From positions 1 through 21,143 of the IMG/VR virus record IMGVR_UViG_3300006119_000075: a DNA stretch of 21,143 bases. The stretch is one strand, 5' to 3'. The notes under the pieces were generated by a model. That model ran no database searches. It was not told the origin of the DNA and saw only the letters and a program-made list of their open reading frames with translations. Source of the stretch: a virus. Shown here piece after piece: positions 5,626-15,858 of the stretch. Position 1 is the first letter of the stretch. Each line of letters begins with the position of its first letter. Position numbers and translations under genes: made by a program.

Positions 5626-7613
5626 CCGCTAAAGTCCTATCACTTACAGTACCCGCAGGGATTCAGCGCGATGGTACGCAGTTCGCTGCAGCTTCCTACG
5701 TGGACGGCCAGTGGGTGCGTTTTCAGCGTGGTTTGCCTAGAAAGATAGGCGGTTACTCAGGCGCTTTTTTAAACGCTTCTGGAGCTTCTAGAGGGCTTAT
5801 CATGAGCGCCACAAATGGCTTGAACTATATCATCTCAGGATACAGTGCAGGTCTTCAGCAATGGGTGACCAATAACGTAACAGCGATTGGAACTGGTCCA
5901 ACTCCATTCTCAATTAGTTCTTCTTATTTCACACCCAACGCAACCAATCTTTGGCAGTTTGACATCGGATATGACTCCACGGGTGGTGGAACATTACAGT
6001 TGATTGCTCACCCTGGTCAGAATCTTCAGTACATCACAAGTACCACCAACGTGCGTCCTTTATATGGCCAATTCACAGGAACATCATTGGCACCAGTCGG
6101 CGTTTTCACCGCAGTAGGAACTACTACTACTAGTTCAACTAGTGTTACATTTGCGACTACTAATGTAGCCATGGGGCCAGGTGTTTCAGTTACTGGAACT
6201 GGTATTCAATCAGGTAGCACTATTGTTTCCTCATCTTTGGTTGCAGGCGTATGGACCGTTGTTTTAAATAAACCCGCCACAGCATCAGGCTCAGCCACAT
6301 TGACGTTTGACAACAACATCTCGGTAAGCGGCGGAGTTGTAATGTTGTACCCTTACTTGTTTGTTTATGGCAACAATGGGTTGATTCAGAACTGCGCTGC
6401 AGGCGACTTCAACAACTGGACTAGCGCTGACGCAAACGCCAATAACGTGGCCTCTACAAAGATCGTGAAGGGCTTACCACTGCGTGGTGGTACTACCTCC
6501 CCTGCTGGGCTGTTTTGGTCGCTTGATAGCGTGATACGCGTGTCCTACACACCAACTACGGTGACCACAGGAACTACTTCATCTACGTTCTATTGGCGTT
6601 ATGACTTGATCACTCAACAGAGTTCAATCATGTCCTCTAGCTCTGTAATTGAGTACGATGGAATTTATTATTGGGCAGGTATTGATCGTTTCTTGATGTA
6701 CAACGGTGTTGTACAAGAAATACCCAACACCATGAACCAAAACTATTTCTTTGACAACGTCAACCTTTCTCAGCGCCAAAAGGTTTGGGCCAGTAAAGTG
6801 CCTCGTTTTGGCGAGATATGGTGGTTTTATCCTAGAGGTGACGCCACTGAGTGTACCGATGCCATCATCTATAACGTGCGTGAGAAGGTGTGGTATGACG
6901 CAGGTTCCGCACCAGGGGCGCAAAGATCAGCAGGGTGGTTTACTGAAGTGTTTCCCAAACCCATATGGGGTGACTACAATCCCAACACAATTGTTGAATT
7001 TCAAGGGTCAGTTTCAGGTACTACGTTGACAGTATCCTCAATGGTATTCGGATCATTGGCTGTAGGACAAATTATCCAAGGCGCAAGTGTTCCTGACCAA
7101 ATGGTGATTACAGCGCTTGGAAGCGGTTCTGGAGGCGCAGGAACGTATACTGTTTACAATCCAACAAGTACAACAGTTGCAGGCGAGCTAATGACTGTAA
7201 ACGGTTATACGATTTGGCAGCATGAGACTGGAATGAATCAAACATACTTGACCCATGTTGATGCAATTTATTCAGCATTTGAAACGCCTGTTTTGGGATC
7301 AAGTGCAGGGCTAGTTGGTTCAGTACAAGGACCAGGTGAAAACATGTGGACGCGATGCGAGCGTGTTGAGCCTGACTTTATCCAAACTGGACAGATGGAT
7401 GTGATTGTGACTGGTAAGGGTTATGCGGATGACATAGACCGCCCATCAGACCCTTATACATTTGATCCAACAACTCTTAAAATTGATATGCGTGAACAGC
7501 GCCGTGAGATGCGCTTGAGGTTTGAGAGCAATACTTTTAATGGTGACTACCAAATGGGTAAGATTGTCCTCAGTGTCGAGACTGGAGACGTTCGCGGAAC
7601 AGGCAACCCATGA
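5622..7613 (+). CDS. Tail hub / packaged-DNA stabilisation-like protein (P22 gp10-type)
   Basis: This 663-residue virion protein follows the adaptor and fibre-like genes, the position of tail hub or stabilisation proteins in P22-like podoviruses. Its N-terminus (VPAGIQRDGTQ, then DGQWVRFQRGLPRKIGGY at 28-45) resembles that group. The body has repeated beta blades with aromatic residues, such as IEYDGIYYWAGIDRFLMY (343-360) and FGEIWWFYPRGDATECTDAIIYN (about 396-418), suggesting a propeller. Two Gly/Thr-rich segments (about 160-230 and 458-527) look inserted. The start is TTG at 5622, chosen because GGAGG at 5611-5615 is six bases upstream and TTGA overlaps the preceding stop. The 3' end overlaps the next gene by four bases. 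It is longer than P22 gp10 (472 residues), partly because of the inserts. Confidence 0.6.
   Translation: MTAKVLSLTVPAGIQRDGTQFAAASYVDGQWVRFQRGLPRKIGGYSGAFLNASGASRGLIMSATNGLNYIISGYSAGLQQWVTNNVTAIGTGPTPFSISSSYFTPNATNLWQFDIGYDSTGGGTLQLIAHPGQNLQYITSTTNVRPLYGQFTGTSLAPVGVFTAVGTTTTSSTSVTFATTNVAMGPGVSVTGTGIQSGSTIVSSSLVAGVWTVVLNKPATASGSATLTFDNNISVSGGVVMLYPYLFVYGNNGLIQNCAAGDFNNWTSADANANNVASTKIVKGLPLRGGTTSPAGLFWSLDSVIRVSYTPTTVTTGTTSSTFYWRYDLITQQSSIMSSSSVIEYDGIYYWAGIDRFLMYNGVVQEIPNTMNQNYFFDNVNLSQRQKVWASKVPRFGEIWWFYPRGDATECTDAIIYNVREKVWYDAGSAPGAQRSAGWFTEVFPKPIWGDYNPNTIVEFQGSVSGTTLTVSSMVFGSLAVGQIIQGASVPDQMVITALGSGSGGAGTYTVYNPTSTTVAGELMTVNGYTIWQHETGMNQTYLTHVDAIYSAFETPVLGSSAGLVGSVQGPGENMWTRCERVEPDFIQTGQMDVIVTGKGYADDIDRPSDPYTFDPTTLKIDMREQRREMRLRFESNTFNGDYQMGKIVLSVETGDVRGTGNP
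6099..6311 (+). repeat. Inserted Gly/Thr-rich beta domain, copy 1 (in the hub protein)
   Basis: Residues about 160-230 of the hub protein form a Ser/Thr/Gly-rich segment containing SVTGTGIQSGSTIVSSS and ending in SGSATLTF. It resembles small beta domains that recur in phage tail proteins and interrupts the more aromatic propeller-like sequence. It shares the order strand, G.G(I/V), T.I, G.(W/Y)TV with copy 2 at 6993-7202 but is strongly diverged. Confidence 0.45.
6697..6715. repeat. Perfect 19-base inverted repeat inside the hub gene
   Basis: TGTACAAC and GTTGTACA are perfect 8-bp arms around GGT. The 7-base core TTGTACA/TGTACAA is the same as that of the inverted pair in the divergent control region at 17661-17709. 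It is inside coding sequence, so it may be coincidental. Confidence 0.4.
6993..7202 (+). repeat. Inserted Gly/Thr-rich beta domain, copy 2 (in the hub protein)
   Basis: Residues about 458-527 follow a pattern common in phage virion proteins: GSVSGTTLTVSS, then VGQIIQGASV, then ITALGSGSGGAGTYTV, then a closing strand. The flanking sequence reads smoothly from PKPIWGDY to NGYTIWQHETGMNQ, which suggests an insertion into the hub fold. Confidence 0.55.
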
Positions 7614-7844: not shown

Positions 7845-9560
7845 ATGACGACAACAACATCAGTAGATCCAGCATTTCAAGGTCTTGTGAATAACTATTT
7901 CACAAGCAATCCTAATGTTACACAATCACAACTTGCAAACACAATTAGTACGCAGGGCGGAATGACGCCTGAAATTGCGCAAGCTTTGGCAAATCATTAT
8001 GGAACTGATGTTGCAACAGTTAACTCTACTTACAACAATTTAATTGGCAATACTGGCGCACAAACAGCAAATACGAGCGCATCCAATTCACCATTAACTG
8101 CAAATGCTGCCAATACTTCTAGTGCGACAACACAAACATCTCCTTTGACTCAATTACAAGGCGTACAAAATACCATTCAAGGATTGTCTTCCACTCCACC
8201 ACAATATTCTGATCAGCAAATTGTGGACTACATTTCACAAAACAATTTAAGTGGGCAAGGTTTAACTGATGCCGAAAAACAATTTGGCGTTAATCAAGAT
8301 CGCGTAACACAAGCATATCAAAATATAGCCAAACAACCTGGTTACTCATTGGATCCAACCATGATGGCTTTAGCAGGTCAAGGCAATACTTTTGCCCAAG
8401 CCATGTTAAATGAGGCTACCTACAATCCACCACAGTCTCTTTTTGATAGTAAGTTTTTTAATCAAGATTATCAACAAGCCAAAGATAATTTAGGCATAAA
8501 CAGTCAGACTTTCAGAAACATTGCAAATGAAGTGCCTCTACAAACAACAATTGATAATTGGATCACTGCGCATCCAAATGCAACTGCTGCTGACATACAA
8601 AAAGCTGTAGGCACATCACAATACAAGGCATCTGACATACAAAATGCTTTAAGTAATATGGCTGCTTATGATCCCAATTCATATGAAGCAACAATGAGAT
8701 CATTCAATACTGCTGAAAACCTGAATCCATTAAAAGCATTTACTGATTATTTACAAAAAAATAGCACTCAAAATCAAGTAGGTTCTTATGACATGCCAAG
8801 TCAAGGCCAATTGGCAAAAGAAATAAATGCGTTGGGACTTGATCCTAGCACATTGTCTAGTTTGCCAAATAACATAAATGGGGTCTATTTTGGTGATCAA
8901 AGTACTTTACCAAGTTTGGCAAAAAATTTGAATATAGCGAATAGCTTAGCTCAAACAGGAACTGATGTTTACAATTTGTTAAATGGTATTGGTGATCCAA
9001 GCACTTTAAAAAAATATTCTGCGTTAGCTCAAGTAGTTAATGCTCCTACAAATAGCTCAGACTATCAAAACTTTACAAAATTAGCAAACTCTGGAGTTGA
9101 TGCCGCAACTTACGCTAAAGCTACTGGATCAAATTTGACCAATACTATAGCAAGCTACAACTTCCAACTTGATCCACAAGCAAGAGCTGATTCTACCCTT
9201 CAGTATTTAAATTTACCTAAAGGAACTCAATATCAGTATGGAACGAATTCTTCAGGAATTCCAACTTATGTATTTACTGATCCAACCACAAAACAACAAA
9301 TGGCATACACTGCTGTACCTGGTGGTCAGTATCAAAAAATACCATTAGCGCAAGCCCAAGCAGGCAACTTAGTACCTAAAAACACAAGTTCTTACGCGAC
9401 ATACAACTTTGGTCAAAGTGCATATGTAAATCCTTTTAACTCAAAAGGACAGATTGACACAACAAATGCTGCGGCTTTAGATTCTGCTTATAAAAATAAC
9501 TTAATTTCAATGACAGATTACTTGAATGCCAAGCAAGCCTTGACTAAAAAGACCACATAA
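7845..9560 (+). CDS. Large internal virion/ejection-like protein with helical repeats
   Basis: This 571-residue protein is rich in Asn, Gln, Thr, Ala and Ser and contains one cryptic helical module at least three times. The copies are at residues 14-67 (NYFTSNPNVTQSQLANTI), 125-161 (QIVDYISQNNLSGQGLTDAE) and 234-272 (TIDNWITAHPNATAADIQKA). Each copy has an amphipathic helix, an N-rich turn, a second helix and a third beginning near V, T or D-I-Q. Thr/Ser-rich linkers at 70-105 carry two SPL tripeptides. Residues about 455-530 are Tyr-rich and may be beta. AGGAAA lies upstream and the gene starts one base after the previous stop. An ejected or internal virion protein is inferred from place and composition. 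It looks AT-richer than the early genes. Confidence 0.6.
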   Translation: MTTTTSVDPAFQGLVNNYFTSNPNVTQSQLANTISTQGGMTPEIAQALANHYGTDVATVNSTYNNLIGNTGAQTANTSASNSPLTANAANTSSATTQTSPLTQLQGVQNTIQGLSSTPPQYSDQQIVDYISQNNLSGQGLTDAEKQFGVNQDRVTQAYQNIAKQPGYSLDPTMMALAGQGNTFAQAMLNEATYNPPQSLFDSKFFNQDYQQAKDNLGINSQTFRNIANEVPLQTTIDNWITAHPNATAADIQKAVGTSQYKASDIQNALSNMAAYDPNSYEATMRSFNTAENLNPLKAFTDYLQKNSTQNQVGSYDMPSQGQLAKEINALGLDPSTLSSLPNNINGVYFGDQSTLPSLAKNLNIANSLAQTGTDVYNLLNGIGDPSTLKKYSALAQVVNAPTNSSDYQNFTKLANSGVDAATYAKATGSNLTNTIASYNFQLDPQARADSTLQYLNLPKGTQYQYGTNSSGIPTYVFTDPTTKQQMAYTAVPGGQYQKIPLAQAQAGNLVPKNTSSYATYNFGQSAYVNPFNSKGQIDTTNAAALDSAYKNNLISMTDYLNAKQALTKKTT

Positions 9561-11873
9561 ATGAGCACAACAGCCAACGCATCATCGTCACCATTAGCGC
9601 AAGACATTTGGTCTACGGCTAGTCAGACTTTTGATGATACCTACAACACCATTCAAACAGGTCAAGCCAAGATCGGAACGATTACTGGTGGAGTTGATGA
9701 CAATGGCAACCCAATTACGTCAACAGGCTTAATTGATGGACAAGGCAATTTCATCAATGGCAATATCCAACAAGTAGCGCCAAACGTATACGCAATTATG
9801 TCTGGTTCTACTGGTGGAACCATGAACACATTTGTTCGTGTTGATCCCAATACGGGAGCAGTGCAACCCGTTACCGATCCAAGCACGCAAGTCACTTACA
9901 CAGGTGGATCTAAGGGCGGTTTTATTGGAAACATCGCTAGGGATTTAGGTCCAATCCCTATGATTGCGGCTTCAATCATCGACCCAACCTTACTGCCTTA
10001 TGTCTCTGCAGCCGATACTTATGCGCAGACAGGAGACTTAACAAAAGCAGCTACATCTGGAGCGCTTTCGTATTTGGCTTCCACTGCAGGCAATGCGGCA
10101 GGTCAAACTGTAGGTAAGGCCATAGGATCAACTTTAGGCGAAGACCCTAGTTTGTTGGGAGAAGCACTTCAAGGCGCAGGTTCTGGGGCTGCTAGATCTT
10201 TGACTGCAGCAGAAATTTCATCTCAAGGTAAAGCAGATCCTTTAATTGCATTGATGGCAGGCGGAATAAGTGGTGGCGTATCTGCAATCACTGATCAAAT
10301 ACCAGGCATTCAGAATTTAAGTCCTTCAGGACAAATCGCTGTTTCCAAAATCATAGGCGGCGTTTTAGCTGGTCAGCCAGCCACTCAAACGGCAATTAAC
10401 TTGGCCATAGCCGCAGGGCGTGAAGAGTATAAAAATCAAGTCTCACAGGGTAATGTATCTACACCTACAGATCAAACTTCTACCACTACTTCGCCTTTAG
10501 CCACAGATACAAGTCAAACTGTTGCTACTAGCGCAAGCTCAGATAGCCCACTTAGCAATGTTCAAATCACTGGATCAAGCACTGACCCAACGGATTACAC
10601 AGTAAGCTCTACAAATACAAGTGATGCAAACAGTCCTCTTGGAAAAGTTACTATTACGGCCAAGAAAAATGCAACAACTCCTGATGACACGGTTATAGCT
10701 GATCCTAATGCGACACAATTACAACCAGTTACTGTTGTTGGTTCTAGTGGAATTGACAACACAGTTAGTGACAATACTGTTGTTGAAGACCCTAATGCTG
10801 TTAAATTGAATCCAGTTACTGTTGTTGCAAAAAAAGATACAACTGACAATGTGGTAACCCCTGCAGTTGTTACTGACACAACAAAAACTCCAACAACCAC
10901 AAAAACAACAACACCTGCCGCCAAGACATCAACTTCAACCACTTCAACGGCGTCAAGTTCACCCCTGTCAGGTGGAACTACTAGTTCAACTGGGTTGCCT
11001 ATGGTTGCGACCATGTTGGCAGGCGCTCCTGTGTATGGAAATCCTGCTCATTTACAGGCACTTAAACAAATTTTTGATCAACTTGATCCTGAGTTGGCAA
11101 AGATCATGTCTCAGCCATCACCAAAACAAGAACAGCCCACACAAGTATCCCAAGCTGACTTGGCAGAACTTAATAAAGAAATTAAGATGGAGCAACCTGA
11201 AGTGGCGGAAAGTTTTTTAACCATGGCTGATGGTGGCAGCTCATTTAGTGATCTTGTGAAAAACACTCAATACAAGAACATTGCGCCTGAAGCGCCAACG
11301 ATGCTTAAAGCCGCTCCCGAAATTCAACATGAGTCTAGATTTAGCCCCTTGCATCAGCTAAGGCAAGGCATCAGAAGGGACTCTCAGGCGACTTCTTTGC
11401 TTGCCCATGGGGGTCTACCTCATAAGTACCGTGAAGCGGCTCCAGAGGGCCATAAACCCGAATTTATCACAGGCTTGACTGGATACTATGCCAACGGCAA
11501 AGGAACTGGCCAAAGCGACGATATACCAGCCATGCTCCACGATGGAGACTATGTGATGGATGCTGACACGGTAGCCTCTTTTGGTGACGGATCAAGCAAA
11601 GCAGGCGCACAAGTTTTGAGTAAGTTTCATCACGAAATACCTCACAAAATGGCAGTTGGTGGGAATCCTGTCCCCGCCAAGATTGCTGATGGAGAGTATG
11701 TGTTTCCAGCTAGTTTTGTGACTGCCATAGGTGGCGGAGACAACAAGCTAGGATCGAAATTATTGGATAAAATGCGTGAAGAGCTACGCGCCCACAAGAG
11801 AAGTGCTCCTGACACAAAAATACCACCGAAAGCAAAATCACCTCTTGACTATCTCAAGATGGCGAAAGGATAA
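9561..11873 (+). CDS. Large virion protein with repeat array and duplicated C-terminal domain
   Basis: This 770-residue protein starts immediately after the preceding stop. An N-terminal domain (about 1-115) resembles beta structure, with VDDNGNPITSTGLIDGQG. Residues about 120-285 are an Ala/Gly-rich helical, membrane-prone stretch (PIPMIAASIIDPTLL; GNAAGQTVGKAIG). A Thr/Ser-rich linker with four repeat units runs from about 310 to 470. The C-terminus has two related segments: IPAMLHDGDYVMDADTVASF (655-674) and VPAKIADGEYVFPASFVTAI (704-723), each followed by G-G/D and a helix with LLDKM-like residues. SPL occurs seven times. This C-terminal pattern is common in internal virion proteins of environmental podoviruses. 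A DNA-ejection role is inferred; the catalytic function, if any, is unknown. Confidence 0.6.
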   Translation: MSTTANASSSPLAQDIWSTASQTFDDTYNTIQTGQAKIGTITGGVDDNGNPITSTGLIDGQGNFINGNIQQVAPNVYAIMSGSTGGTMNTFVRVDPNTGAVQPVTDPSTQVTYTGGSKGGFIGNIARDLGPIPMIAASIIDPTLLPYVSAADTYAQTGDLTKAATSGALSYLASTAGNAAGQTVGKAIGSTLGEDPSLLGEALQGAGSGAARSLTAAEISSQGKADPLIALMAGGISGGVSAITDQIPGIQNLSPSGQIAVSKIIGGVLAGQPATQTAINLAIAAGREEYKNQVSQGNVSTPTDQTSTTTSPLATDTSQTVATSASSDSPLSNVQITGSSTDPTDYTVSSTNTSDANSPLGKVTITAKKNATTPDDTVIADPNATQLQPVTVVGSSGIDNTVSDNTVVEDPNAVKLNPVTVVAKKDTTDNVVTPAVVTDTTKTPTTTKTTTPAAKTSTSTTSTASSSPLSGGTTSSTGLPMVATMLAGAPVYGNPAHLQALKQIFDQLDPELAKIMSQPSPKQEQPTQVSQADLAELNKEIKMEQPEVAESFLTMADGGSSFSDLVKNTQYKNIAPEAPTMLKAAPEIQHESRFSPLHQLRQGIRRDSQATSLLAHGGLPHKYREAAPEGHKPEFITGLTGYYANGKGTGQSDDIPAMLHDGDYVMDADTVASFGDGSSKAGAQVLSKFHHEIPHKMAVGGNPVPAKIADGEYVFPASFVTAIGGGDNKLGSKLLDKMREELRAHKRSAPDTKIPPKAKSPLDYLKMAKG
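10551..10836 (+). repeat. Four tandem units of about 28 residues in the 770-residue virion protein
   Basis: Units begin with LSNVQITGSS (331), LGKVTITAKK (360), LQPVTVVGSS (387) and LNPVTVVAKK (416), spaced 29, 27 and 29 residues. The consensus is L-x-x-V-(QT)-(IV)-(TV)-(GA)-(SK)-(SK) followed by a D/T/S/N-rich spacer that often holds DPNA. GSS and AKK endings alternate, so the array may have grown by doubling of a pair. Confidence 0.7.
11523..11774 (+). repeat. Duplicated about 35-residue C-terminal segment
   Basis: Residues 655-689 and 704-738 of the 770-residue protein align as (I/V)PA-x-x-x-DG-(D/E)-YV-x-x-A-x-x-V-x-(S/A)-(F/I)-G-x-G and then an amphipathic helix. The two copies are about 49 residues apart, with a short linker containing MAVGG. 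Confidence 0.65.
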
Positions 11874-11875
11874 AA

Positions 11876-12991
11876 ATGTCTAACCTATTACAGTCATCAC
11901 AAACGCAAGCGACGACCGCACCATCGTATTACACGGACTACCTGAGTAATATTGCTTCTCAGGGCGCAAACGCAGCTCAAAATGCACAATACGTTGGTGC
12001 TCAGCCTTTACAACAACAGGCATTTGAGAACGTAGGAACTGCAGCAAGTGCCTATCAGCCAACATTACAGCAAGCAGGTCAAACGTTGACTAGCGCAGGT
12101 GGTGTGACATCACCCTTGGCTGCTGGAGCAAATTACTTGGCTGCAGCAGGTCAGAGCCCTGCACAACAGGCTCAGGGCTACATGAGCCCCTATATCAATT
12201 CAGTAATCAACAACATGTCTGATATTGCACAACGCAATATTCAGCAGAATCTAGCTCCACAAGCCACTTCTAGCGCTGTGGGCTCAGGTCAATTTGGTTC
12301 ACAGCGTGGCGCTCAGGTCCTTGGTCAAGTGATCAATAGCGCTAACCAAGACTTAAACAACCAAATTGGTCAATTGCTTAATAGTGGATATAACACAGCG
12401 CTCACAACTGCTGAACAACAAAATGCATTACAAGGCCAATTGGGACAAATTGCTGGAAACCAAGCTTCTGCAAATCAACAAAACCTAACTAACCTTGGCG
12501 CACAACAATCTACCTTGGCAGGTCAGAACCAAGCACTTGGATTGGCTGACATCAATGCCTTGTCTACCTTGGGTGGCCAACAGCAGACAATTGCACAGAA
12601 TCAACAGTTGTTCCCATTGACAAACTTGTCTACATTGTCAGGATTGTTGCGTGGATACAATGTACCAACAACCACTACAACGACTGCACAGGGTTCTCCA
12701 TTGTCTGGTGCAGCTACTTTGGGCGCGGGTCTTGCAGGTTTGTTGCAAGGTACTGGAACAAGTGGAACTGGACCCAATTTATTGAGTCAATTAACTGGAC
12801 AAAGCTCAATTGGTGGTTTGTTCAATAATATTTTTGGAACTGGGTCAACATCTTCAGGCGGAACTGCCGTAAATGGAAATCCAAATGGTTCAGCCAATAT
12901 TGATACATCTGGTTGGAAAAGCAATGGAGATGGAACTTACACAACCACAACAGGCCAAATTGTTGATGCTTATGGCAATCCACAAGATTAA
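11876..12991 (+). CDS. Gln/Asn/Ala-rich virion protein (probable internal or ejection protein)
   Basis: This 371-residue protein is dominated by Gln, Asn, Ala, Ser and Gly and has long predicted helices (about 20-75 and 105-245). Residues about 103-175 contain MSPYINSVINNMSDIAQRNI and GSGQFGSQRGAQVL, then a Gln/Asn-rich helix ending SGYNTAL. This resembles a recurrent segment of phage virion and ejection proteins (NPY-x-x-x-V, then GxFGSxR). The C-terminus changes to Gly/Thr-rich sequence ending in a strand-rich tail (GWKSNGDGTYTTTTG). SPL occurs at 79-81 and 274-276. AAAGGA precedes the ATG and the stop of the upstream gene lies two bases before it. There is no enzyme motif. Confidence 0.62.
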   Translation: MSNLLQSSQTQATTAPSYYTDYLSNIASQGANAAQNAQYVGAQPLQQQAFENVGTAASAYQPTLQQAGQTLTSAGGVTSPLAAGANYLAAAGQSPAQQAQGYMSPYINSVINNMSDIAQRNIQQNLAPQATSSAVGSGQFGSQRGAQVLGQVINSANQDLNNQIGQLLNSGYNTALTTAEQQNALQGQLGQIAGNQASANQQNLTNLGAQQSTLAGQNQALGLADINALSTLGGQQQTIAQNQQLFPLTNLSTLSGLLRGYNVPTTTTTTAQGSPLSGAATLGAGLAGLLQGTGTSGTGPNLLSQLTGQSSIGGLFNNIFGTGSTSSGGTAVNGNPNGSANIDTSGWKSNGDGTYTTTTGQIVDAYGNPQD

Positions 12992-13001
12992 GGAATAAAT
13001 C

Positions 13002-14429
13002 ATGACGACCACGACTTCTCCTTTAATGTTTGATGTGAAAAGCACAGACCAGTCAAAAGTAAACCCCGCTGGTTTTGAAGACCCACGGATTGCCAAATCA
13101 TATGAAGATGTTTCTGCAACCAAAGAAGAGCTTATCAAAAGATTGGAAGAGCGCTATGCTCAACCCAATTGGTTTAAAGTAGCCGCAGGATTTGCTAAGC
13201 CACAACTTGGTGGATTCATGGCATCTTTAGGTTCAGCTACAGATGAATTAGGAAATTGGCAAGAACAACAGCGTGCAATTCAACCCACAATTGCAAACAT
13301 GCGCGCTGAGCTTGCTCAACAAAATTTAGTCTTGACCCAGAAAAAAGTAGCGGATGAAATACTTCAGAAAGAAGGTATTACGCCTGAGTCTGCTAAAAAG
13401 ATTGTTCGTCTTGCACCTGATTCTCCGCAGTCTCAAGCTATTCTCAAAGGCACTGAAGTTGCGTCTACACAAGCAGGTACAAAATCAACTGAGTTGGGTA
13501 CAAGTTTAACTGCACAAAAAGCCAAAGTAGAAAACCCAGTTTTTGAAGTTAAAGAATACACACCAAAAGATTGGGAATCTATGGTTGGTAAGAGTGCTGA
13601 AAACTTGAAAAAACAATTGATTGATAGCGGTAAATTCACTCCAGAAGGATTGAGTGGTTTTAGTTATGATCAATTACTTGATGCAAATAAAGCACTGCAA
13701 TCTGAATATGCTGGGCAAAAAATCAAAGATGCACGTACTGCTGGTGAGGTTGTTGCTCAAAATTCCGAAAATCTTAACAAGCTCACTGAAGCTCGTTACT
13801 TAGCATCATCAAAGGGCATGGAAAAGTTACTTGGGCTTGAATCAGGTCAAAGTGCTGTTTCAGCATTGTTTGGATATTTAGCTAACCCATCTGATCAATC
13901 ACAGATGTCAGCTATGAGTAAAGCTGCACGTCAATTGATGTCTACTGATCCAGAGGCATACAACAATTTTGTTGTTTTACAAAAGGTATTGCAACAAAAC
14001 TTGGCTGATGCACGTCAAGCAATTACTAATCCCTCCGTTGGGGCTCAGAACTTGTTGGCAACAACGTATCCTAGCTATACACAACCAAGGGATGCAATCG
14101 TTAAGATTCTTGATTTGATTGCTCATGAGAAGTCAACACAAATGCGTGAGGGATTGATTAGACAAGATTACCGTGGTGATCCAACTCAGTTCTATTCAAA
14201 ATCCAACACACCATATGTCAATTTACAAAAAGCAATTACACAAGAAAGATTAGACATTTTGAATGGCAATACATCTAAATCAAGATTGCCCTCTTTCTAT
14301 TCTCCCTACAATGTTCTTGAAACAAATCCTACTGAACCACCAAAAGGTAGAGAGACAAAGTTGCCAGTTGGTTACCATGAAGAAATTATCAATGGTAAGC
14401 GTCACATTCGTGCAGATAAGGTAAATTGA
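13002..14429 (+). CDS. Helix-rich virion protein of unknown function
   Basis: I do not recognise this 475-residue protein as a family. It is mostly helical and charged. Examples are SATKEELIKRLEERYAQPNW (38-57) and IQPTIANMRAELAQQNLVL followed by QKKVADEILQKEG (about 93-124). A more globular region follows with aromatic residues around 375-440 (YPSYTQPRDAI; GDPTQFY). The first eight residues, MTTTTSPL, contain the SPL tripeptide shared with its neighbours. AAGGAAT precedes the ATG. It lies between the Gln-rich virion protein and the lysozyme-domain protein, an order like that of podovirus ejection proteins, so it may form part of the same trans-envelope complex. That role is inferred from position only. 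Confidence 0.6.
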   Translation: MTTTTSPLMFDVKSTDQSKVNPAGFEDPRIAKSYEDVSATKEELIKRLEERYAQPNWFKVAAGFAKPQLGGFMASLGSATDELGNWQEQQRAIQPTIANMRAELAQQNLVLTQKKVADEILQKEGITPESAKKIVRLAPDSPQSQAILKGTEVASTQAGTKSTELGTSLTAQKAKVENPVFEVKEYTPKDWESMVGKSAENLKKQLIDSGKFTPEGLSGFSYDQLLDANKALQSEYAGQKIKDARTAGEVVAQNSENLNKLTEARYLASSKGMEKLLGLESGQSAVSALFGYLANPSDQSQMSAMSKAARQLMSTDPEAYNNFVVLQKVLQQNLADARQAITNPSVGAQNLLATTYPSYTQPRDAIVKILDLIAHEKSTQMREGLIRQDYRGDPTQFYSKSNTPYVNLQKAITQERLDILNGNTSKSRLPSFYSPYNVLETNPTEPPKGRETKLPVGYHEEIINGKRHIRADKVN

Positions 14430-14430
14430 T

Positions 14431-15858
14431 ATGTCAATTGCTGAAGACTATAACAACCCAGGCAATCTTCGACCACCCAAAGGCGTCACTTATGAAGGCC
14501 AAGTTGGTGTGGGCGATAGAGGCTTTGCTATTTTTGAAACAGCAGAGCAAGGTCGTAAGGCTTTAGTTCAAGACATTCAACAAAAAATTAAGAACGGTCT
14601 AAATACACCCGATTCTTTTATAGACAGATATGCGCCTGAAGGGGACAACCCAGACGAGGTTCGAGACAACTATAAAATCCATTTGATGAAAAATCTTGGA
14701 TTAGAGAGTAGCGCAGACCCTTTTCCCAAAGATGCACATGAAAAGATTGCTGATGCAATAACACAATTTGAAACTGGCCACAGAGACTTGCCTCCCCCAC
14801 CAGAACCAGGTGGCCCAATTGCAGGCAACGTTACAAATCAAGCAATTGAATCTACACAAAAAAATCCTCTTGATGAAGTTCCTTTGCCTTTACAAAGTCT
14901 AGCGACAGGCATCGCAGGGGGTGTGGCGGGAACTACTGCTGGAATGGCCAAGTACCCCGCTGTTTATGCTTATCACAAGATCATGGATGATGTTAAACAG
15001 CATCAGCCACCAGCAACTGAAGAAGTTCAAGCCTCAACGTGGCCAAGCGCTAAAACCCCAGTTAGCGGTCAGACTAGATCAGAGCGTCAAACTCAAGGTG
15101 CAGTTGATGAACAAGGCTTGACTGGAAGAGAAAGACAGACTGGATATACAGAGGCAACGGCGCAGAAGGCGGCAAGGAAAGACTTGCAATACGGCGCAGC
15201 CAAAGAAGTTGGCCTGAATCCAAATAGAGCCTTTGCAGAGCATCCTGATGTTGCATCTACGTCAGGCGGTTTGTTGGCATCAAAACAAACCATTGACACT
15301 CTTGCAAGAGAAAAAGAACTTGCTAAAAATAAACTCATTGAGCGCAATGTAAATCTAGCAAAGAGTGTTGGTGGTGATTGGCAAAAAATGGCGCAACAAG
15401 CGGCCAATCTAGCTAAAAATGGCACGCCAGAACAAAGAAATATTGCATTCAGGTTTTTAGACAAAATGTTTACTGGCTTAGGCAAGATGGCGACATCATT
15501 TCCTGGTCGAGTGGGTCAATATGGGTTTGGATTCGGAGCTGCTGTTCCTGCAGCATGGGAACAATATAAGCAAGAAAATCCTAAGACAGCAGGCGCAATA
15601 TTGGCTGGTGGAACTGCTCTAGGAGGGCTTACAGGATACTTTCCAAAGACCATGGGAGCGTTGGGTGCCGCAGCTTCTACTGCCTATGCATTAACTCATC
15701 CAGAAGAGACTGCAGCTAGTATGAGAATGTCTGACGTAAATCCAACTGCTTTTATGGGTATGCCTGAAGAAATGACATCACCCTTTGTTGAACAAAAAAA
15801 TGCTGGTGCAGGCAGAGGGTTTGTAAATCCCCCTACCTCACCATTGGCTAATCCTTAA
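14431..15858 (+). CDS. Virion-associated protein with lysozyme-like N-terminal domain
   Basis: Residues 1-120 match a domain seen in phage virion proteins that I associate with cell-wall digestion. It has NNPGNLRPP (8-16), GFAIFETAEQG (31-41), GLNTPDSFIDRYAPEGDNPDEV (about 56-77), then an LGL and IADAITQFETGH segment. Two glycine-zipper-like hydrophobic regions follow (about 156-181 and 365-420, with GGTALGGLTGYF), suited to membrane insertion, with a charged helical stretch between (about 230-350). The last residues are TSPLANP. Such a protein would travel in the virion and open peptidoglycan during DNA entry. No unambiguous catalytic triad can be named by eye. The ATG lies one base after the preceding TGA, and this is the last gene of the block. 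Confidence 0.62.
   Translation: MSIAEDYNNPGNLRPPKGVTYEGQVGVGDRGFAIFETAEQGRKALVQDIQQKIKNGLNTPDSFIDRYAPEGDNPDEVRDNYKIHLMKNLGLESSADPFPKDAHEKIADAITQFETGHRDLPPPPEPGGPIAGNVTNQAIESTQKNPLDEVPLPLQSLATGIAGGVAGTTAGMAKYPAVYAYHKIMDDVKQHQPPATEEVQASTWPSAKTPVSGQTRSERQTQGAVDEQGLTGRERQTGYTEATAQKAARKDLQYGAAKEVGLNPNRAFAEHPDVASTSGGLLASKQTIDTLAREKELAKNKLIERNVNLAKSVGGDWQKMAQQAANLAKNGTPEQRNIAFRFLDKMFTGLGKMATSFPGRVGQYGFGFGAAVPAAWEQYKQENPKTAGAILAGGTALGGLTGYFPKTMGALGAAASTAYALTHPEETAASMRMSDVNPTAFMGMPEEMTSPFVEQKNAGAGRGFVNPPTSPLANP

Follow-up and report, generated by a model that had tools for sequence, protein, structure and literature searches.

Ser-Pro-Leu motifs conserved at the protein level in the probable DNA-ejection proteins of a freshwater phage

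The window, by which we mean the whole 21,143 nt stretch of viral DNA analysed here (IMG/VR record IMGVR_UViG_3300006119_000075), encodes an adaptor, a fibre-like protein, a hub, p571 and p770, p371, p475a and p475b, in an order that is also kept in relatives. A near relative (L002) has extra 169-residue genes at 5832-6341 and 2112-2621 that flank the fibre-hub pair, and the window has neither. The adaptor is SU10-type (PF24175), the hub protein matches phrog_3287 and has a relative in MW202545 annotated as 'phage stabilization protein', and for p475b the match is to phrog_873 (head and packaging, 'endolysin'). The five genes from p571 to p475b, all on the plus strand, lie after the portal/adaptor/hub genes, where DNA-ejection (E) proteins are expected to be encoded. 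Gene p770 (9561..11873) encodes a probable ejection protein whose tape-measure-like C-terminal domain matches several tape-measure PHROGs, the match being local and restricted to that domain; its good structural matches among viral proteins are uncharacterized, and a known fold was rejected because the best PDB comparison (Z 3.0) is not meaningful. The product of p371 (11876..12991) is Gln-rich and long-helical, and five of its 53 homologues match phrog_4287 (DNA ejection protein; best E-value 1.7e-9), with the window's own p371 falling below threshold. Searches of Pfam with p571, p770, p475a and p475b gave no match, and no profile similarity to known ejection proteins was found for p571 or p475a. 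From gene position and these profile matches, the proteins of the block are probable DNA-ejection proteins.

The product of p571 (7845..9560) aligns with residues 6-432 of a fused homologue in the related locus L067 (E-value 2e-23). In L060, L063 and L067 the counterparts of p571 and p770 form a single protein of 1133-1495 residues, and since p571 matches the N-terminal extension of this fused homologue, it is the split-off N-terminal part of a p770-type protein, so that the five proteins of the window correspond to four. Compared with those three loci, the segment 7845-11873 thus carries a gene split or fusion.

The first-pass annotation had reported 13 copies of the tripeptide Ser-Pro-Leu (SPL) in these five proteins, and translation of the genes confirms this number and its distribution over the proteins, with copies at residues 82 and 99 of p571, 10, 311, 329, 358, 467, 595 and 760 of p770, 79 and 274 of p371, 6 of p475a and 470 of p475b. 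It had estimated that about one would be expected, and composition indeed gives 0.94; in the shuffled-composition test that it proposed, 20,000 whole-protein shuffles had a mean of 0.95 and a maximum of 6. SPL ranks first among the over-represented tripeptides of the five proteins by ratio of count to expectation, and conditioning on dipeptides raises the expectation to 2.8, a value that SPL itself inflates. As the annotation had observed, SPL is absent from the window's adaptor, fibre-like and hub proteins. The SPL codons vary from copy to copy, and the copies in the linkers of p571 and p770 also mostly fail to align with those of relatives, so recent DNA duplication was rejected as their source, again in agreement with the earlier reading.

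About 170 related loci were gathered, together with MW202545 and Caulobacter phage RW, and SPL was counted against expectation after removal of near-duplicates. Across this family there are 155 copies in p770 (29.4 expected) and 103 in p371 (10.1 expected), compared with 18 in p475a (14.8 expected) and 19 in the p475b slot (9.0 expected), while counts in the adaptor (3 vs 2.9), fibre (0 vs 7.4) and hub (1 vs 7.9) proteins match or fall below the chance level. In G002, a relative of 55.7 kb, the block has 12 SPL and the 38 flanking ORFs have none. The SPL near the C-terminus of p770 is kept in all seven loci from metagenome-assembled genomes (MAGs), whose bins are assigned to Betaproteobacteria or Burkholderiales, one of them to Limnohabitans. 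No SPL occurs in the matching protein of MW202462 (L011), a match that is doubtful and of low complexity. The enrichment belongs to p571 plus p770, which are one protein in relatives, and to p371. The earlier claim of a motif shared by five proteins does not hold; the idea of an even spread fails for p475b and largely for p475a.

Taken alone, the single copies of p475a and p475b amount to 2 against 0.28 expected, which is weakly significant (p about 0.03). The p475a copy (13017..13025, plus strand) is N-terminal, and within the first 30 residues SPL occurs 8 times in 77 homologues (0.78 expected), with some relatives beginning MxxxxxSPL as in the window; elsewhere in these homologues it is at chance. 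This is a weak N-terminal enrichment, carried by some of the p475a homologues. The p475b copy (15838..15846, plus strand) is unconserved, and SPL there is near chance family-wide. We note that the p475b slot of L093, L094, L104 and L173 has a shared ESPL[LI]L element that is not found in the window.

Most copies in p571 and p770 lie in linkers, at DNA positions 8088 and 8139 for the two of p571, at 9588..9596 for residue 10 of p770 (a linker or N-terminal copy that does not align with SPL in L060, L063 or L067) and within 10491..10967 for residues 311, 329, 358 and 467, all on the plus strand. With the conserved C-terminal domain removed, the window linkers have 7 SPL against 0.51 expected from shuffles within 40-residue blocks, and those of L060, L063 and L067 have 15 against 1.83. 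In the linkers of this clade neither TPL (1 vs 3.0 expected) nor SPI (0 vs 1.3 expected) is raised, and the five other permutations of S, P and L show no comparable excess. Linkers of the wider family are enriched both for SPL (66 vs 22.6 expected) and for APL (71 vs 31.6 expected), with TPL not enriched (23 vs 25.8 expected), so the motif in linkers family-wide is [SA]PL; proteins upstream of the hub have no excess of SPL or of APL. When the linkers of the window, L060, L063 and L067 are aligned, most SPL copies fall at non-coinciding positions, a pattern suggestive of a degenerate motif whose copies come and go at a maintained number or, less probably, of drift in biased sequence.

The p770 linkers also contain TonB-box-like peptides. 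In the window these span residues 329-430 (about 10545-10850), with four units near residues 329, 358, 390 and 418, two of them preceded by SPL; similar linkers occur in L095, L135, L136, L142, L108, L025, L027, L097, L010 and L050, and examples are GEIVVTADRP (three times in L095), PEVVVTAPRDPYTG, and PVTVVAKKD and KVTITAKKN in the window. Eighteen such units occur, spread over 12 of the 80 homologues, whereas local shuffles give 1.33. The pattern also matches beta-strand proteins such as the hub, and these peptides are thus a lead only.

A few sites behave quite differently from the linkers. SPL 760 of p770 (11838..11846, plus strand) lies in a conserved C-terminal tail with the consensus KIPPKAK[SDT]P[LI][DE]Y[LIM]K; SPL is found there in 72 of 80 homologues, and both the Pro and the Tyr are present in 60 of 60 aligned homologues. 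At SPL 274 of p371 (12695..12703, plus strand), which is followed by a Gly/Ala/Leu-rich segment, Ser is found in 53, Pro in 52 and Leu in 48 of 53 homologues, and the Ser is invariant even as the preceding sequence shifts from TTTAQG to GAYQA types. Codons are free to vary at both of these sites among divergent homologues, so it is the protein sequence that is kept, and the suggestion of protein-level selection on SPL is supported. SPL 79 of p371 (12110..12118, plus strand) is present in about half of the family, and SPL 595 of p770 (11343..11351, plus strand) lies in a conserved element with a fixed Leu, where SP is often replaced by GA. The annotation had stated that absence of the motif from homologues at the corresponding sites would refute its reading; the motif is indeed missing at most linker sites, and in L002 from both p475a and p475b, but the conserved sites keep it. 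A longer common motif, SPLxx followed by a hydrophobic sixth residue, was rejected since it holds at the conserved sites and is absent from most linker copies. A separate peculiarity is that the p371 C-terminus and p770 linker are strongly Cys-rich in L010 (20526-21761 and 18603-20519), L127, L116 and L050, with runs such as CCSCCCSCCCCCACC in place of the Ser/Thr/Gln-rich sequence of the window; in these relatives the p371 79 site is preserved as SPLC.

AlphaFold2 models of moderate confidence were obtained for p371 (long-helical; mean pLDDT 65.5, pTM 0.32) and for a C-terminal fragment of p770 (mean pLDDT 70.9). In the former a helix (residues 80-91) begins directly after S79, and in the latter the terminal helix (761-769) begins directly after S760; both arrangements are those of a helix N-cap, in which Ser, Thr or Asp immediately precedes a helix. 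The same is not seen at S274 of p371, where residues 260-300 are disordered and of low confidence in the model, or in the linkers. On these models a helix-start role at p371 S79 and p770 S760 is likely, with or without partner binding.

SPL is nearly unchanged at a few places across very different relatives and so is probably no accident but a functional element, for docking or for starting a helix. As a helix is modelled to start exactly at the Ser in two of the conserved sites, a purely structural cap (a Ser N-cap with Pro at N1, following flexible sequence and binding nothing, the linker copies drifting or serving some other end) is a serious rival to docking, and indeed the main one, although we consider it unlikely on balance. 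It may explain the best-conserved p770 site, where the tail tolerates S, D or T at the first position and has D or E two places past the Pro in the manner of a capping box, and the alternation of SP with GA ahead of a fixed Leu at residue 595 is in keeping with it. However, the window-clade linkers exclude Thr and specifically favour Leu, the acceptance of Ala in linkers family-wide is unlike capping, and the Ser of p371 274 is invariant in a region modelled as disordered. Alternatively, the linker copies might have arisen incidentally in Ser/Thr/Pro linkers that are biased and evolve fast, perhaps together with ancient exchange of segments, so that only the few conserved sites matter. Their positions do turn over, the linkers of relatives hold strong low-complexity repeats such as TPV/VTP, and some sites may be homologous (window 467, L063 876 and L067 808); yet block shuffles that preserve local composition yield only 0.5 and 1.8 copies against the 7 and 15 found, permutations of S, P and L are not raised and the codons differ, and we think this explanation improbable.

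The first-pass annotation had offered docking, sorting or cleavage as possible roles. Of these, docking or sorting is the most plausible, with a putative partner, and cleavage is without support. Several copies do lie near termini (p770 10 and 760, p475a 6 and p475b 470), and the database record of P22 gp7 notes that a host protease removes the first 20 residues of the protein, but the conserved p770 copy precedes an equally conserved tail whose removal is unlikely given its invariant Tyr, and a non-exhaustive survey of ten head-region proteins of G002 revealed no separate protease, the head-protease matches being to the major head protein; it is thus very improbable that SPL marks sites where a protease of phage or host cuts as the head matures or during ejection. 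In favour of docking are the excess of SPL, its restriction to one gene block, its conservation at fixed sites and its turnover in linkers. SPL is short, lies in flexible or terminal regions, and is either conserved above its surroundings or recurrent with turnover, as short linear motifs are. Against docking, SPL is not enriched in p475b and hardly so in p475a. What can be said firmly is that the SPL enrichment of these probable ejection proteins is real and that the motif is conserved at the level of protein sequence; our best guess, at a little under even chances, is that SPL or [SA]PL serves as a short docking motif for proteins that are packaged, or ejected, together.

If docking is correct, [SA]PL would be a short linear motif displayed by phage DNA-ejection proteins, with fixed copies in the p770 C-terminal tail and at p371 residue 274, and further copies dispersed in the flexible p571/p770 linkers and sometimes at the p475a N-terminus. 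Through it these proteins would bind a single virion component common to them all, with the scaffold, portal and hub as candidates, and would thereby be packaged or stacked jointly and exit together, and the linker copies would add binding strength; both the binding by SPL and the common partner are what we infer. A bolder proposal, which we put forward as speculation and think somewhat improbable, is that [SA]PL could be a common address, read by a single virion protein, that gathers the ejection proteins of a large, mostly freshwater phage group, with linkers tuning multivalency and the TonB-box-like peptides within them acting on the host envelope after ejection. Among the open-access papers searched, we found none that describes SPL, another short linear motif or disorder for ejection proteins or internal virion proteins. 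The way in which ejection proteins are chosen for packaging and kept as a group is poorly understood except in P22 and T7, and a three-residue motif with an invariant serine, common to two adjacent proteins in dozens of divergent phages, is a concrete and mutable handle on the question.

A close parallel in organization is with phage P22, whose ejection proteins gp7, gp16 and gp20 are encoded, like the window block, directly after tail-completion genes, and are likewise several proteins that are packaged and ejected together, a likeness that for the window is one of analogy. These proteins enter the P22 procapsid via the scaffold and are released upon its departure (PMC8402733), so there is precedent for a shared docking site, and by analogy a motif common to several ejection proteins suggests such a site here. 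Unlike the window proteins, P22 gp7, gp16 and gp20 have no SPL, and no sequence match between them and p571, p770 or p371 was found; T7 gp14-16 also have none, so that precedent works without an SPL motif, which counts against docking. The cultured relative Caulobacter phage RW has the same gene order (gp066, gp065, gp064 and gp063) and homologues of p770, p371 and the hub, but unlike the window has SPL nowhere in its block; this too counts against docking, and the motif thus characterizes only some members of the wider group. Tape measure proteins offer another comparison, although the virion type here suggests no long tail and no SPL tail has been described for them. A 38-residue stretch of the tape measure protein of mycobacteriophage Douge (gp16) matches the p770 C-terminal domain (E-value 1e-5), and the C-terminal end of the Douge protein plugs into the baseplate hub (PMC13033339). 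The matched stretch (residues 966-1003) is far from this docked tail (residues 1658-1699); by analogy with Douge, nevertheless, the hub is a second possible partner of the p770 tail.
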